From: Thermoanaerobaculia bacterium | GTDB lineage: Bacteria > Acidobacteriota > Thermoanaerobaculia > Gp7-AA8 | NCBI GenBank assembly: GCA_017883205.1 | Contig: JADGNZ010000054.1 | Span: 1-41,202 of the forward strand | Direction: 5' to 3' | DNA length: 41,202 nucleotides | Program-made: the position numbers and the translations under genes | Notes under the pieces: model-generated | What the model was told of the DNA's origin: nothing | Databases searched by the model: none | The model's input: only the letters and a program-made list of their open reading frames with translations | In this document: positions 7,436 to 21,637 of the stretch, in pieces | Numbering within the stretch: position 1 is the stretch's first letter | How the letters are laid out: every line of letters starts with the position of its first letter

Positions 7436-7491
7436 ACCACAGAGACACAGAGGACACAGAGAAACCTCTGTGCTCTCTGTGTCTCTGTGGT
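7436..7491. repeat. ACCACAGAGACACAGAGG-type inverted repeat, copy 1
   Basis: The left arm (ACCACAGAGACACAGAGG onward) at 7436-7461 is mirrored by CTCTGTGTCTCTGTGGT at 7466-7491. The second copy is at 17013-17079. The rest of 7492-7634 shows only TCCGCGGACA/TGTCCTTTCGGACA-like short repeats (about 7512-7560) and no gene. Confidence 0.75.
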
Positions 7492-15686: not shown

Positions 15687-17051
15687 ATGCCCGAACGCCG
15701 CCTAACGCGCACGATCGCGCTTCATCTCATCGCCACGATCGCCGTCATCGCTATCGTGGCCGGCATCGGCGCGAACGTTTTCTTTCACGTCTCGCCGCGA
15801 GCCGCGTTCTTCTCTGGTGCCGCGCTCTTCCTCCTCGGGATGGCCGTCATGGCCATCACCATGCGCGCGCCGCTGCGTCGCATTCGCCGGAACCTCAGCG
15901 CGCTCGTCGACGGCGTTCGCGGGTTTGCGGACGATGATTTCAGCCTTCGCCTGCACGTCACCGGACATGACGAGATCACCGATCTTGTCGCCATCTACAA
16001 CGAGATCGGCAACATCCTGCGCGATCAGCGCAACGAATCGGTGCAGCGCGAACTGCTCTTCGAAACCGTCTTGCAGGCGTCGCCGCTATCGATGATCCTG
16101 ACGAGCGGCCGCGGGCGCATCGTCTTCGTCAATCGCGCTGCCCGCGATCTCTTCGGCGCCGGCGATCGCATCGAAGGCCGCCGGCTCGACGAGCTGGCCG
16201 ATGAGGTGCCCGCTCTGCGCGACGCGTTGCGTGCACCCGGCGGCGCGCTGTTCACCGTCGATGGCGAGACCTTCCAACTCAGCCAGCGCACGTTCTATCT
16301 CAACACGCGCGAGCACGTTCTCTATCTCATCGCGCGACTGACGCAGGACCTTCGCCGGCAGGAGCTCGACATCTGGAAGCGGGCCATCCGCGTCGTCAAT
16401 CACGAGCTGAACAACTCGCTCGCGCCGATCCACTCGCTCTTCCATTCCGCAAACGTCGTCCGGGACCGCCCCGGCGACAGCGGCCGGCTCGCCGAGATCA
16501 ACGCCGCGATCGAGGAGCGCCTCGCATCTCTGCAGCAGTTCATCGACGGCTACGCCCACCTGGCGCGCCTTCCGAAGCCGCGCCGCGAGCGGGTGGTTTG
16601 GCGCGACCTGCTCAATGCCGTGTTGCCCCTCGCACCGTTTGTGATCGCCGAGCCGCTCCCGCCAGACGAATGTTCGTTCGACCGAACGCAGATCGAGCAG
16701 GTCCTCCTCAATCTCGTCAAGAACGCCGCTGAGGCCGGAAGCGATGAGGGGGAGATCGTGGTCAGCGTCGTCCGCCGGGGCGGCGCGAGCGTGCTCACCG
16801 TCCAGGATCGCGGCCGCGGAATGGACGACGAGACGATGAACCACGCTCTCCTCCCGTTCTACTCGACCAAGCCCGGCGGTACCGGCCTCGGCCTCGCCCT
16901 CGCCGGCGAGATTATTGACGCGCATGGCGGCAATGTTCGGATCAGCAGGCGCGATGGTGGGGGAATCTCGATTACGTGTTTGATACCGGATGGGGGGTCG
17001 AAGAACAATTTTAACCACAGAGACACAGAGGACACAGAGGACAGATCCTAA
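15687..17051 (+). CDS. Membrane sensor histidine kinase
   Basis: This is a 454-residue kinase, the probable partner of the NtrC-type regulator at 12174. Two membrane helices lie at about residues 10-30 and 33-55. A HAMP-like segment follows (about 55-110), then a PAS-like domain (about 120-215). The dimerisation box is NHELNN with H239 as the phospho-acceptor. The ATPase domain has the N-box NLVKNAAEA, G1 DRGRGMDDE, F-box LLPFYSTKPGGTGLGLAL and G2. The ATG at 15687 is chosen; a GTG at 15678 is also possible. The last 13 or so codons (NFNHRDTEDTEDRS) are encoded by a palindromic repeat, so the original C-terminus was probably altered by the insertion. Confidence 0.92.
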   Translation: MPERRLTRTIALHLIATIAVIAIVAGIGANVFFHVSPRAAFFSGAALFLLGMAVMAITMRAPLRRIRRNLSALVDGVRGFADDDFSLRLHVTGHDEITDLVAIYNEIGNILRDQRNESVQRELLFETVLQASPLSMILTSGRGRIVFVNRAARDLFGAGDRIEGRRLDELADEVPALRDALRAPGGALFTVDGETFQLSQRTFYLNTREHVLYLIARLTQDLRRQELDIWKRAIRVVNHELNNSLAPIHSLFHSANVVRDRPGDSGRLAEINAAIEERLASLQQFIDGYAHLARLPKPRRERVVWRDLLNAVLPLAPFVIAEPLPPDECSFDRTQIEQVLLNLVKNAAEAGSDEGEIVVSVVRRGGASVLTVQDRGRGMDDETMNHALLPFYSTKPGGTGLGLALAGEIIDAHGGNVRISRRDGGGISITCLIPDGGSKNNFNHRDTEDTEDRS

Positions 17052-17079
17052 CTCTGTGTCCTCTGTGTCTCTGTGGTTC
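17013..17079. repeat. ACCACAGAGACACAGAGG-type inverted repeat, copy 2
   Basis: The left arm AACCACAGAGACACAGAGGA is mirrored by TCCTCTGTGTCTCTGTGGTT. It forms the end of the kinase gene, supplies its stop codon at 17049-17051, and ends two bases before the annotated ATG of the peptidase gene. It could fold into a long hairpin between the two genes. Confidence 0.8.
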
Positions 17080-17080
17080 A

Positions 17081-18979
17081 ATGTTTTTCGACCGCTCTCC
17101 CACACCCCAACAAAACGAAATAGCCCCGTTCCGCACCACTGTTAGACCTCGCGTGCAGCGAATCGTCCTTTCCCTTTCCGTCGCGCTGTTGACTCTTGTC
17201 TCTTCGGCGGCCTCGGCCGCTACGACAACGATGCCGCTCTCGCAGGTCCGGAAGGGCATGCATGGATACGGCGAGACTGTGTTCGACGGGACGAAGCTCG
17301 AGCGCTTCGACGTCGAGATCACCGGAGTCCTGCAGAACATCGCACCGGGACAGGACCTCATCCTGGCGAAGATCTCCAGCCCGGTCGTCGACCGTGCCGG
17401 CGTTATCGCCGGCATGAGCGGCTCGCCGATCTACATCGACGGCAAGGTGATCGGCGCGCTCGCGTACTCGTGGCAGTTCGCGAAGGAGTCGATCGCCGGC
17501 ATCACCCCGATCGACGAGATGCTCAAGATCGCGCAGGTCGACGGCGCGCCAATGGGCGTGCTGGCCGCTGCAACGCCGCGCATGACCGGCGCCGAGTTTC
17601 TCGACGCCATGATCCAGCACAAGACAGCCGAGAAGTTCGAGCTGATGATGAGCAGCCTTGCCGGTGCCTCGCCCGCGTCGTCGCTTGGCGGCGCCAAACC
17701 GATCGCGGTGCCGCTTTCGATGTCGAGCTTCGCGCCCGACACGCTCGGACGCTTCGGCAAGTATCTCGATCCGATGGGCTTCATGCCCGTACCTGCCGGC
17801 GCGTCATCGACGTCGACGACCAATACGATTCCGGCAGCCAAAGAGTTCGCCGCCGGTGACGCCATCGGCGCCGTCCTTCTTCGCGGCGACTTCAACGTCG
17901 CTGCGACAGGAACCGTCACCTACATCGATGGCGACCGCGTCTACGCGTTCGGCCATCCCTTCCTCGACATGGGCGTCGTCGCCTTCCCGATGGCGAAGTC
18001 CGAGATCGTCGGCGTGATGCCGAGTCTGGCCAGCTCATTCAAGTTCGCCAACACCGGCGCCGTCGTCGGCGCGTTCCGCCAGGACCGCGCGGTCGGCATC
18101 ATGGGCGTGATGGGGGAGAAGGCCGACATGATCCCGGTCGACCTCGAAGTCGAGGGGAGCGGCATCGCGCAGAAGTATCACGTCGATGTGCTGCGGCACT
18201 CGCAGCTCACACCGCTGATCCTTGCGATGGCTGCCGACACCGTCGTCGCCAGCGCACAGCGCGCCGCGGGCGAGCGAACGGTGATGCTGGAATCCGAGAT
18301 CAAGATCAAAGGCTACCCTGATCCGATCGTCCTTCGCGAAGGTTGGGCCGGCGCGCAGGCGCGGCAGGCTATCCCGTCGTATCTCGCGGTCGTCGCCGGT
18401 TACGTGATGTCGAACGAGTTTCACACCGCCGACATCGAGTCGGTGAAGATTCACTTCCGCCATACCGATGATCTCAAGATCGCCAAGATCCTCGAGGCCT
18501 CGCTCGAAATGCCGACGAACGGCCGCATCCACGCCGGCGACTCCGTGAAGGTTCGCGCCGTGCTCAAGCCGTACCGCGGCGAAGCGTTCGTAGACACGTT
18601 CGACGTGAAGATTCCCGACGACCAGGCGGCAGGCACCGCATATCTTCTCGTCGGCAGCGGCTCGGTCCTCAATCAAGTCGACTTCATGCTCGTGCCACCT
18701 GATCCGCGCAGTCTCGATCAGGTGATCGCCGTTCTGCGCCGCCTCCGTCCATCCACCGAGCTCACGCTTGGCCTTTACGAACAGACCGACGGCGCCGTCA
18801 CGGCTGGCGTCTATCTCCCGAATCTGCCTCCGACCATGCGGGCGATCGTCAGCAGCGATACGTCGAACGGACCGCAAGCTCCTGTCCGCTACCATGCCTC
18901 ACAACACATCGCGCATCCGCTCGGTTACATCGTCGACGGCGTCGTGAAGATCGATCTGGATGTGAAGCCGGCAATTTAG
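17081..18979 (+). CDS. Secreted SpoIVB-type (S55) serine peptidase, permuted order
   Basis: This is a 632-residue exported protein. A signal peptide is seen at about residues 25-47 (VQRIVLSLSVALLTLVSSAA). The ATG at 17081 abuts a repeat, so a GTG at 17153, directly before the signal peptide, may be the real start. The S55 nucleophile motif is GMSGSP (residues 111-116, Ser114), preceded by LERFDVEITGVLQN. The histidine-containing block AFGHPFLDMG (His292) and an RAVGIMGVMG block come later. In B. subtilis SpoIVB the histidine block comes first and the GMSGSP block last, so the domain appears circularly permuted. The C-terminal 250 residues are a beta-rich extension. Nothing else in the window suggests sporulation. 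The substrate is unknown, probably an envelope protein. Confidence 0.85.
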   Translation: MFFDRSPTPQQNEIAPFRTTVRPRVQRIVLSLSVALLTLVSSAASAATTTMPLSQVRKGMHGYGETVFDGTKLERFDVEITGVLQNIAPGQDLILAKISSPVVDRAGVIAGMSGSPIYIDGKVIGALAYSWQFAKESIAGITPIDEMLKIAQVDGAPMGVLAAATPRMTGAEFLDAMIQHKTAEKFELMMSSLAGASPASSLGGAKPIAVPLSMSSFAPDTLGRFGKYLDPMGFMPVPAGASSTSTTNTIPAAKEFAAGDAIGAVLLRGDFNVAATGTVTYIDGDRVYAFGHPFLDMGVVAFPMAKSEIVGVMPSLASSFKFANTGAVVGAFRQDRAVGIMGVMGEKADMIPVDLEVEGSGIAQKYHVDVLRHSQLTPLILAMAADTVVASAQRAAGERTVMLESEIKIKGYPDPIVLREGWAGAQARQAIPSYLAVVAGYVMSNEFHTADIESVKIHFRHTDDLKIAKILEASLEMPTNGRIHAGDSVKVRAVLKPYRGEAFVDTFDVKIPDDQAAGTAYLLVGSGSVLNQVDFMLVPPDPRSLDQVIAVLRRLRPSTELTLGLYEQTDGAVTAGVYLPNLPPTMRAIVSSDTSNGPQAPVRYHASQHIAHPLGYIVDGVVKIDLDVKPAI

Positions 18980-19018
18980 TGATCAGCGGCCAGGCCGGTA
19001 CGTTACTGCAGCGAATCG

Positions 19019-19231
19019 TGTCATCCTGAGCCGCCGAAGCCGCCGTAAGATTAGTTGCTATTGCCCTCGGCACGCATCGGCGGCGTAGGACGGTCGAAGG
19101 ATCTCAAACTACGAAGATCTCGTTGGCCCAGCGCGAGCGAACGTCATTGATCCGGGAACCGCTCGCGCTAGGCAAACACGATCGACGAATTTTGAGATCC
19201 TTCGACCGTCCTTCGGCGGCTCAGGATGACA
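19019..19231. repeat. Long palindromic repeat, MITE-like, copy 2
   Basis: The ends are exact inverted repeats: TGTCATCCTGAGCCGCCGAA on the left and TTCGGCGGCTCAGGATGACA on the right. Inner GGATCTCAAA and TTTGAGATCC blocks also face each other. It matches 76-316. The rest of 18980-19468 contains no supportable gene; the open frame through it belongs to the next gene but starts too early. Confidence 0.8.
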
Positions 19232-19468
19232 CAATCGCGCTTGGAGTCAGTGGTAACGACGGTACGTTGCCGCTTCCTGACAAACAATGTTTTCCATGCA
19301 AAGCTACAATTCAAACGTCGGCTGGTCATCGGCTTTTCGCCGGAAATGCGTGCTCATCTGACGGCTGACACTTTCCGCCTTCGAAAACGTAATCCACAAG
19401 TGGTCGGTGGCCTGCGCTTCTTGCTGACCGCTGATCACTGGCCTCTGGCCACTCTGAAAGGAAAATTC

Positions 19469-21637
19469 ATGCGCCGAGTCGCCGCGCTCGTAGTCACGCT
19501 GTTCACAGCCTCGACCCTCTTCGCCGTTGCGCCGCAGTTCTGGCGCGTTCGCAACGCGGAAGACTTTCTTGCCGGCGACATCGAGGGCTTTGCCGTCACC
19601 TCGCGCGGCGAGCTTCGTCCCGGCCCCTCGCTCAAGAAGGTGGCGACGTTCACCGATCCGTTCGTCCTGTCGCAAGTCGGCGCGCCGAACGGCGATCACT
19701 TCTTCGGCACCGGCAACGAAGGGAAGGTCTACCGCCTTCGCGGCACGGAGTTGAAAGCGATCTACACGGCGCCGGAGCCCGAGGTTTATGCCGTCGCGTT
19801 TCACGACGGGGCGGTGTACGTCGGAAGCTCGCCGAACGGAAAGGTCTACCGCGTCGATCCAAACGACGGTAAATCGACGGTCTTCTACGATCCGAAGCAG
19901 GCCTACATCTGGGCGATGGAGTTTCTTCCGAACGGCGATCTCGCGGTCGCCACCGGCGTCGATGGCAAGCTGTTTCGCGTCACACCGAAGGGCGAGGGGA
20001 AGGTTCTCTTCGACTCGCCGGAGACGCATCTCCGCTGCCTGGCGGTGAAGAAAGACGGGACGCTGCTCGCCGGCGGATCGGCGAAAGGGAGGATCTACGA
20101 GATCCGTCCCGATGGCGGAGCGCACGCGTTGTACGACTCGCCGTTGTCCGAGATCTCGTCGATCTACGTCGACGCGAACGGTATCGGGTGGGCGTCGGCC
20201 GCAAGCAACATCCTGCCGTCGACCGCGCCGGTGAAAGCCACGCCAACCAAGCCTGCCACGCAGGCAACTGCGGCTTCGGCATCTACCAGCGCGTCGTCGG
20301 GCGAACAGAAAAAGGAAGAACCGACCGGCAGCGTCGAGGTCAGCATCGGCATTGACGATTCATCGGCCGGTCCCTCAGGCAGCGGCGAGATCTATAAAAT
20401 CAATCCTGACGGCTTCGTGGAGCTCGTCCGCAAGTTCGAGCACGAGATGGCGTACGGAATCACCGGCGGCCCGAACGGCTCCATCCTCCTCGCCACCGGC
20501 CCGCAAGGCCGCATCTACCAGTTGAATGACGGCGAGGTCTCGCTCGTCGGCAGCGTTCCCGAGAAGCAGGTGGTCTCGATCTCGACGGTCGCGAACCAGA
20601 CGCTCATCACGACCACGAACAGCGGCGCGGTCTACCGGATGGAGAGTGGGCCGTCGGCCAAAGCGGAGTTCCGATCGGCCGCGAAAGATGTCGAGCGCTT
20701 CTCCCGCTTCGGTCACTATCGAATCGAAGGCGACAACCTCGGCGACGGTCATCTCGCCATCGCCTTCCGCTCAGGCAACACACGCACTCCGGATGCCACC
20801 TGGAGTCCGTGGAGCGCAGCCTCGACTTCGAGCGACGGACCGGTCGATGTTCCGGCCGGACGTTATGTGCAGTGGAAGGTGACGATGCCGAAACCTGCGG
20901 CCAACATGTCGGTCGACGAGGTGACGGTCGCCTTCATGAACCGAAATGTAGCGCCAGTCATCGACACGGTGGTCGTGCAGGAGCCGGCGGTCGTCTACAT
21001 CACCGGCAGCTACCCGCAGTCGCCGCAAATCGTCGAGGCAACGAATCCCGACGAGTACGGCATCTTCACCAGCCTCGACACCCCTCGGGAAAGGAACGAA
21101 CAGGGCAAGAAGGTCTATCGTCGCGGGTTCCGTACGTTGACCTGGCGCGCGCACGACGACAACGGCGACGCGCTTCGCTACACGCTGTCGTTCCGCAAGG
21201 TGGGCAACGAGAAATGGCTCCGCCTGCGCGAGAACTTCGAGGAGTCGTCGATGAACTTCGACACCTCGCAACTCCCGGACGGCAATTACGAGCTGCGTTT
21301 GTCCGTGACCGACGCTCAGGACAATCCCGACAATGCACTGACCGACGTCAAGGAAGGCATCCGGATCGTCGTCGACAACACGCCGCCGTCGATCACGGCT
21401 ACCAACGAAGGCGACGACGTCGTCATCCACGTGTCCGACAAGCGTTCCCCGATCGGGAAGGTGGAGTACTCGGCGGACGCGGAAAAGTGGATCCGACTCA
21501 CGCCCGTCGATGGCATCGGCGACTCTCCGAACGAAACCTACCGCATCAAACGAAGCGCCGTCGCCGGCAAGTTCGTCGTCGTCCGCGCAGTCGATGCGTT
21601 CTTCAACGTGGGAACGGAGTCGATCGCGTTGCCGTAG
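19469..21637 (+). CDS. Secreted beta-propeller-like protein with C-terminal Ig/FN3-like domains
   Basis: This is a 722-residue exported protein. The ATG at 19469 has AAAGGAAAA upstream and begins a signal peptide, MRRVAALVVTLFTASTLFAV. The open frame continues upstream, but that part is repeat sequence. Residues about 40-440 contain repeated strands of the type GNEGKVYRLRG, SSPNGKVYRVDP, GVDGKLFRVTPKG and GPQGRIYQLNDG, spaced as propeller blades. A Thr/Ala/Ser-rich linker interrupts the blades at about 245-290. The C-terminal 250 residues look like two Ig/fibronectin-like domains (RGFRTLTWRAHDDNGDALRY, then VVDNTPPSITATNEGDDVVI). No catalytic motif is obvious; binding or scaffold function in the envelope is the best guess. 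Confidence 0.82.
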   Translation: MRRVAALVVTLFTASTLFAVAPQFWRVRNAEDFLAGDIEGFAVTSRGELRPGPSLKKVATFTDPFVLSQVGAPNGDHFFGTGNEGKVYRLRGTELKAIYTAPEPEVYAVAFHDGAVYVGSSPNGKVYRVDPNDGKSTVFYDPKQAYIWAMEFLPNGDLAVATGVDGKLFRVTPKGEGKVLFDSPETHLRCLAVKKDGTLLAGGSAKGRIYEIRPDGGAHALYDSPLSEISSIYVDANGIGWASAASNILPSTAPVKATPTKPATQATAASASTSASSGEQKKEEPTGSVEVSIGIDDSSAGPSGSGEIYKINPDGFVELVRKFEHEMAYGITGGPNGSILLATGPQGRIYQLNDGEVSLVGSVPEKQVVSISTVANQTLITTTNSGAVYRMESGPSAKAEFRSAAKDVERFSRFGHYRIEGDNLGDGHLAIAFRSGNTRTPDATWSPWSAASTSSDGPVDVPAGRYVQWKVTMPKPAANMSVDEVTVAFMNRNVAPVIDTVVVQEPAVVYITGSYPQSPQIVEATNPDEYGIFTSLDTPRERNEQGKKVYRRGFRTLTWRAHDDNGDALRYTLSFRKVGNEKWLRLRENFEESSMNFDTSQLPDGNYELRLSVTDAQDNPDNALTDVKEGIRIVVDNTPPSITATNEGDDVVIHVSDKRSPIGKVEYSADAEKWIRLTPVDGIGDSPNETYRIKRSAVAGKFVVVRAVDAFFNVGTESIALP

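Follow-up and report, generated by a model that had tools for sequence, protein, structure and literature searches.

A predicted S55-type serine protease of Acidobacteriota with its two half-domains in reversed order

The open reading frame at positions 17081–18979 (plus strand, 632 aa) of the window, i.e., the whole 41,202-nt stretch of DNA analyzed here, encodes a protein that contains both halves of the S55 peptidase domain of the sporulation protease SpoIVB in the opposite order. Both halves are homologous to those of SpoIVB, the residues Ser113, His292, and Asp335 are kept almost without exception in the family, and the gene forms a conserved pair with a downstream gene. We consider it probable that the protein is an exported S55-type serine endopeptidase whose half-domains are circularly permuted and which has a single active site made up of Ser113, His292, and Asp335.

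The Protease Gene and Its Segments

The protease gene is a single open frame in which both halves of the domain are present; a partial domain or a frameshift was thus ruled out. An inverted repeat lies directly before the gene (17010–17081; 30-nt arms, 97% complementary, gap of 12 nt), and its 16-nt core pair recurs at 7437–7490. At its end, this repeat overlaps the ATG at 17081, which lacks a counterpart in an 87% identical homologue from an Acidobacteriota metagenome-assembled genome (MAG), the closest named relative among the matches listed, in which the GTG at 17153 is kept. For these reasons, the GTG at codon 25 is the likely translation start. Residues 25–46 (17153–17218), which include a helix at 25–44 in the structure model, were read by eye as a Sec-type signal peptide, and the protease is probably exported.

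The Ser module (residues 50–157; 17228–17551) contains the blocks FDVEITGVLQN (76–86), GMSGSP (111–116; 17411–17428) with the putative nucleophile Ser113, and TPIDEML (142–148). An insert (158–254; 17552–17842) bridges it to the His module (255–372; 17843–18196), which contains AFGHPF (289–294; 17945–17962) with the putative catalytic His292, the proposed third catalytic residue Asp335 (18083–18085), and AVGIMGVMG (337–345). The chain ends with a C-terminal accessory region (373–632; 18197–18979), which is alpha/beta in the model. The Pfam scan of 29 family members detected, besides S55, no family except one weak MG2 match in one member. The sequence-only reading had placed the Ser block before the His block, which is borne out, and had numbered His292 correctly as the His of AFGHPF; the serine that it called Ser114 is residue 113, the first Ser of GMSGSP, and residue 114 is Gly.

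Both Half-Domains Match SpoIVB in Reversed Order

The protein matched the Pfam family Peptidase_S55 (PF05580) with 42.3 bits (cut-off 25), and so did 29 of 29 family members at E 0.01 or better. The best stretch, residues 64–129 on profile positions 125–192, covered the Ser half only. The score against the SpoIVB equivalog TIGR02860 was 36.3 bits, below its cut-off of 305.25. Both the Ser block GMSGSP and the His block of S55 peptidases are present, and both hhalign and hmmsearch placed the Ser half, not the His half, first. In SpoIVB, the order is His236 and then Ser378, as the earlier reading had stated and as was confirmed by ten SpoIVB sequences and by passages of the report on its crystal structure (PMC12502668). 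When the solved structures were searched using phmmer, the sole significant match was SpoIVB from Bacillus subtilis (PDB 9lnf), with residues 54–140 on chain positions 222–307; a second stretch, residues 272–310 on positions 118–159, was in reversed order and was not significant alone.

For SpoIVB, a profile was made by combining 9lnf with five phage-collection contigs, three plasmid-collection records, and one viral-collection contig, ten sequences in all, and it was compared by hhalign with a family profile of 95 homologues. The native protein gave two separate matches to the S55 domain in reversed order: the Ser module is the counterpart of its C-terminal half (S55 positions 124–192) and the His module that of its N-terminal half (positions 10–140, or 10–110 when the module was aligned alone), while the insert between them matched S55 with a P of 0.15. 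When the His half was placed first, a single alignment of 162–165 columns with a score of 143.7 was obtained, as against 106.2–111.7 for the best match of the native-order versions. Among 19 rotations of the 226-column core, the full score was reached solely with cuts before residues 134, 146, 255, and 267, all at the module junction or close to it. As both halves match one SpoIVB S55 domain and rotation yields one collinear alignment, the earlier proposal of a circular permutation, rather than a partial domain, is supported.

The same order was seen in single sequences and in genomes. Using hmmsearch with the SpoIVB HMM, the rotated version outscored the native one for 93 of 93 sequences (90 distinct; median 42.1 vs. 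33.0 bits), and the Ser half came first in all 43 native sequences with both halves above 5 bits. A genome test combining the PF05580 match with a His-module profile, in which no motif selection was applied, gave His-module matches in 54 of 60 genomes; 12 of these had no Ser place listed and one was split over contigs, and in the 41 genomes with both places listed, Ser was followed by His on the same strand and contig in 41.

The reversed order would be accidental if only the Ser block were related to SpoIVB and the His block belonged to an unrelated domain with a GHP motif. The Pfam stretch limited to the Ser half, the non-significant His half in phmmer, and the weak structural matches of the His module (Foldseek E 0.25; VIA-align Z ≤5.9) would agree with this, but the His module alone scored 52.3 against the SpoIVB profile, whereas 200 column shuffles reached a maximum of 22.3 (mean 13.4, sd 2.6) and the other controls, a reversed profile and four C-terminal segments, scored 9.8–15.5. 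Moreover, the GT-T and GH motifs of the His module line up with those of SpoIVB. We regard an accidental order as extremely improbable and take both halves as parts of one permuted domain.

No PDZ domain was found before the protease half, and none was detected by Pfam at E 0.01 in 29 members. The N-terminal part of SpoIVB matched the protein by hhalign with a P of 0.053 or worse in four comparisons. A PDZ hidden in the insert or in the C-terminus was likewise not detected by hhalign: residues 150–262, which span the insert, gave a P of 0.053 against the N-terminal part and PDZ of SpoIVB, i.e., no detectable similarity.

Conservation of the Putative Catalytic Residues

For the examination of conservation, 111 loci, 80 more places from the phylum, and five from the phylum of a Gemmatimonadales genome were pooled to give 196 loci, and the ORF was found at all of them. 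The 196 rows correspond to 191 distinct cores, of which 185 remain at less than 95% identity. Ser113 and His292 were present in 196 of 196 rows, Asp270 in 195, and Asp335 in 194, with the order Ser113–His292–Asp335 in 194 rows. One Asp335 exception is truncated (L021). The other (L167) has Ile at this position, as EQIR replaces QDR, and its source genome (G071) has two copies. Within the set of 185, the counts were 185 for Ser, 185 for His, and 183 for Asp335. The conservation of Ser is partly due to selection, the Ser block being in the search pattern for loci L034–L113 and in the Pfam match by which the others were obtained; selection on His played no part in the 196-row count, and Asp335 was never a selection criterion.

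The Ser-then-His order was already seen in 31 of the first 31 loci. The motif filter kept 95 of the 111 loci, and in the 16 filtered-out loci, which carry CGH, MGH, LGH, FGHR, or FGHY, Ser is likewise followed by His and then by Asp. The distance from His to Asp is 43 residues in 191 and 44 in three of 194 sequences, which resembles the spacing of His57 and Asp102 in chymotrypsin. A His block upstream of Ser113, which the earlier reading had named as a finding that would speak against it by restoring the SpoIVB order, was ruled out, since no column in residues 45–112 exceeds 10% His in the 196 rows.

Structure Models, Fold Matches, and Couplings

The full-length AlphaFold model had a pLDDT of 82.5 and a pTM of 0.79. 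No Foldseek match of this model reached E 0.001; 9lnf ranked fifth (E 0.023, probability 1.00, rmsd 2.7 Å, 106 columns), with four unrelated chains ahead of it. VIA-align placed residues 47–157 on the C-terminal barrels of HtrA/Deg, Spl, viral 3C, and trypsin-type proteases (Z 6.9–10.6 in the best 50 rows) and the Ser module on 9lnf (Z 8.9, 2.2 Å, 102 residues). Couplings computed from 194 sequences (Neff 143) fit a strand ring in the Ser module, with 13 pairs against 4.2 expected. By VIA-align and couplings, the Ser module thus has the six-stranded C-terminal barrel with the nucleophile that is typical of the PA clan.

The isolated His module was modeled with a pLDDT of 90.9 and a pTM of 0.81. 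In this model, His292 follows the third strand and Asp335 precedes the sixth, a series of strands as expected for the N-terminal barrel from the chymotrypsin order. The top Foldseek match of the isolated module was 9lnf, a weak one (E 0.25, rmsd 16.2 Å). The VIA-align matches were also weak (Z ≤5.9); they fell on the C-terminal halves of PA proteases, not on their N-terminal halves, and 9lnf was absent from the 50 rows. Because the two barrels of the chymotrypsin-type fold resemble each other, the match to C-terminal halves leaves an N-terminal barrel neither proven nor excluded. The couplings gave eight strand-ring pairs in this module against 4.8 expected, slightly above chance.

In the crystal structure of SpoIVB, His236 is close to residue 378, according to passages of PMC12502668. 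Since these two residues map onto His292 and Ser113, one composite active site with the triad Ser113–His292–Asp335 is likely. Couplings that link the Ser loop to the His/Asp loops were not enriched (one pair in the top 25, 0.41 expected; one in the top 100, 1.64 expected). The top inter-module coupling scored 1.80, compared with 1.13–1.32 in three block shuffles, a null that also strips phylogeny, and the coupled inter-module pairs are not concentrated around the active site.

Alternatively, the active site could be formed in trans, the Ser module of one chain pairing with another chain's His module, which would make the arrangement a domain swap and not a permutation. The insert between the modules is long, and parts of it were modeled with low confidence (pLDDT <50 for residues 155–185, 192–201, and 243–252), so that the model does not fix how the modules are connected. 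The Ser-to-His spacing of 133–222 residues (median 174, 194 sequences) is, however, long enough for an intrachain site, and the single-chain pTM of 0.79 also speaks for one chain. We therefore consider a site in trans quite unlikely and prefer a permuted domain with its active site within one chain.

The Proposed Third Catalytic Residue

In the SpoIVB crystal, Asp363 is about 24 Å from His236, and Thr393 has been proposed as the third residue instead, as stated in passages of PMC12502668. All ten SpoIVB sequences retain both Asp363 and Thr393. As a third residue shared by all these proteins, Thr393 was rejected, since the matching position 128 is Ala, Ser, or Gly in the family. An equivalent of Asp363 was not retained either: residue 99, which matches it by hhalign, is Asp in 11 of 185 sequences, and residue 100, which matches it by eye, in two of 185.

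Asp335 is the best candidate for the third residue in this protein, as judged from the alignments. In a gap-free local alignment, it lies opposite SpoIVB Asn290 (G at +0, N/D at +5, G at +9 and +12), a position occupied by Asn in nine and by Ser in one of the ten SpoIVB sequences. Because hhalign prefers a gap there, by which Asp335 does not lie opposite Asn290, the equivalence of the two is put forward as a suggestion. If true, it would explain the lack of an acid beside His236 in the SpoIVB crystal.

The variation at position 128 could also be taken to mean that the permuted S55 fold is a binding scaffold that does not cleave, the more so as the site might suffer from a permutation. The presence of all three residues, Ser, His, and Asp, in 194 of 196 rows would be unexpected for a dead enzyme, and we regard a pseudo-peptidase as unlikely compared with an active protease.

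Distribution and Gene Neighborhood

The source genome has one PF05580 match. Across the phylum, taken as Acidobacteriota from the 87% identical relative, 185 of 199 genomes matched PF05580 at E 0.01, and 168 of them were over the curated cut-off; the phylum of the Gemmatimonadales genome had matches in 6 of 61 genomes. The best 80 named loci include MAGs labeled Gemmatimonadota, Zixiibacteriota, Latescibacterota, KSB1, Planctomycetota (also Brocadia), and Myxococcales, labels which may err. A MAG labeled Bifidobacterium breve also has the gene and is probably a misnamed bin. When the plasmid and phage collections were searched with the protein, no match was found at E 1e-5. In two IMG/VR contigs (L033, positions 470–2363, and L115, positions 2001–2084), the 3' part of spoIVB abuts other DNA, which in L033 is a site-specific recombinase-like gene, named by eye; these junctions suggest an integration into spoIVB.

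A beta-propeller gene follows the protease gene on the same strand at 59 of the 80 named loci, or 59 of 72 when the eight loci without room for it are left out; at the other 13 of the 72 it was not found. In the window, this partner (19469–21637, plus strand) is probably a secreted beta-propeller protein with an Ig-like C-terminal part, the Pfam matches to both being below the curated cut-offs. The gap between the two genes (18980–19468, about 490 nt) has complementary ends, seen by eye, at about 19020 and at 19211–19230. Since the first ATG (19226) sits at the end of this complementary pair, the ATG at 19469, chosen by eye from the sequence, is the likelier start of the partner. The upstream neighbor of the protease gene is a histidine kinase gene, which adjoins it at one of the 80 loci.

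Proposed Function

In the proposed arrangement, the Ser barrel would be followed along the chain by the bridging insert of about 100 residues, the His half, and the C-terminal accessory region, and the two halves would fold together to form one active site. Ser113 would act as the nucleophile, His292 as the base, and Asp335 as the acid, which gives a triad that runs Ser–His–Asp along the chain. The protease and its beta-propeller partner are predicted to work together, with the protease cleaving a periplasmic or cell-surface protein; we infer the role of Asp335, catalysis, the location, and the role of the partner from the evidence given above. With moderate confidence, we favor the fuller reading of an active, naturally permuted protease of the chymotrypsin fold that has a Ser–His–Asp triad and a beta-propeller partner, occurs in nearly all Acidobacteriota as well as in further phyla, and has a full Asp where SpoIVB has Asn290.

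If so, this natural permutation, found throughout a phylum, would demonstrate that joining the two barrels in a new way need not cost the active site, and it would offer a natural comparison for SpoIVB and its third catalytic residue. The permuted protease and its partner also give a testable function to a conserved, uncharacterized gene pair.

Comparison with Known Proteases

S55 peptidases have been reported as widely detected in acidobacteria (PMC8841776), and these are probably genes of the kind described here. The passage in question lists the annotation alone and is silent on domain order. In the open-access literature searched by titles and the starts of abstracts, no report of the domain permutation was found; the "S55" of PMC5900883 is, in the part concerned, a strain name.

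The closest known system is SpoIVB of B. subtilis, which shares with this protein both homologous half-domains, the GMSGSP block, and the GT-T...GH block. In addition, its Asp213 (ten of ten sequences) matches Asp270 here (195 of 196 rows), by eye and just outside the hhalign range. The differences are that the halves are in opposite order, that SpoIVB has a PDZ domain and none was detected here, and that a C-terminal region of about 260 residues belongs to the protein here. Furthermore, the positions of Asp363 and Thr393 of SpoIVB are not kept here, and SpoIVB has Asn (nine of ten) or Ser where the gap-free alignment places Asp335.

The order of the catalytic residues serves in defining protease clans, and PA-clan enzymes are regarded as running His–Asp–Ser. 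The Ser module superposes on the C-terminal barrel of HtrA/Deg and other PA-clan proteases. In contrast to these enzymes, the Ser barrel precedes the His half here, and the residues, whose catalytic role is proposed, run Ser113–His292–Asp335 instead of His–Asp–Ser. In nature, a chymotrypsin-type protease fold with its halves rearranged in this way would be unusual.
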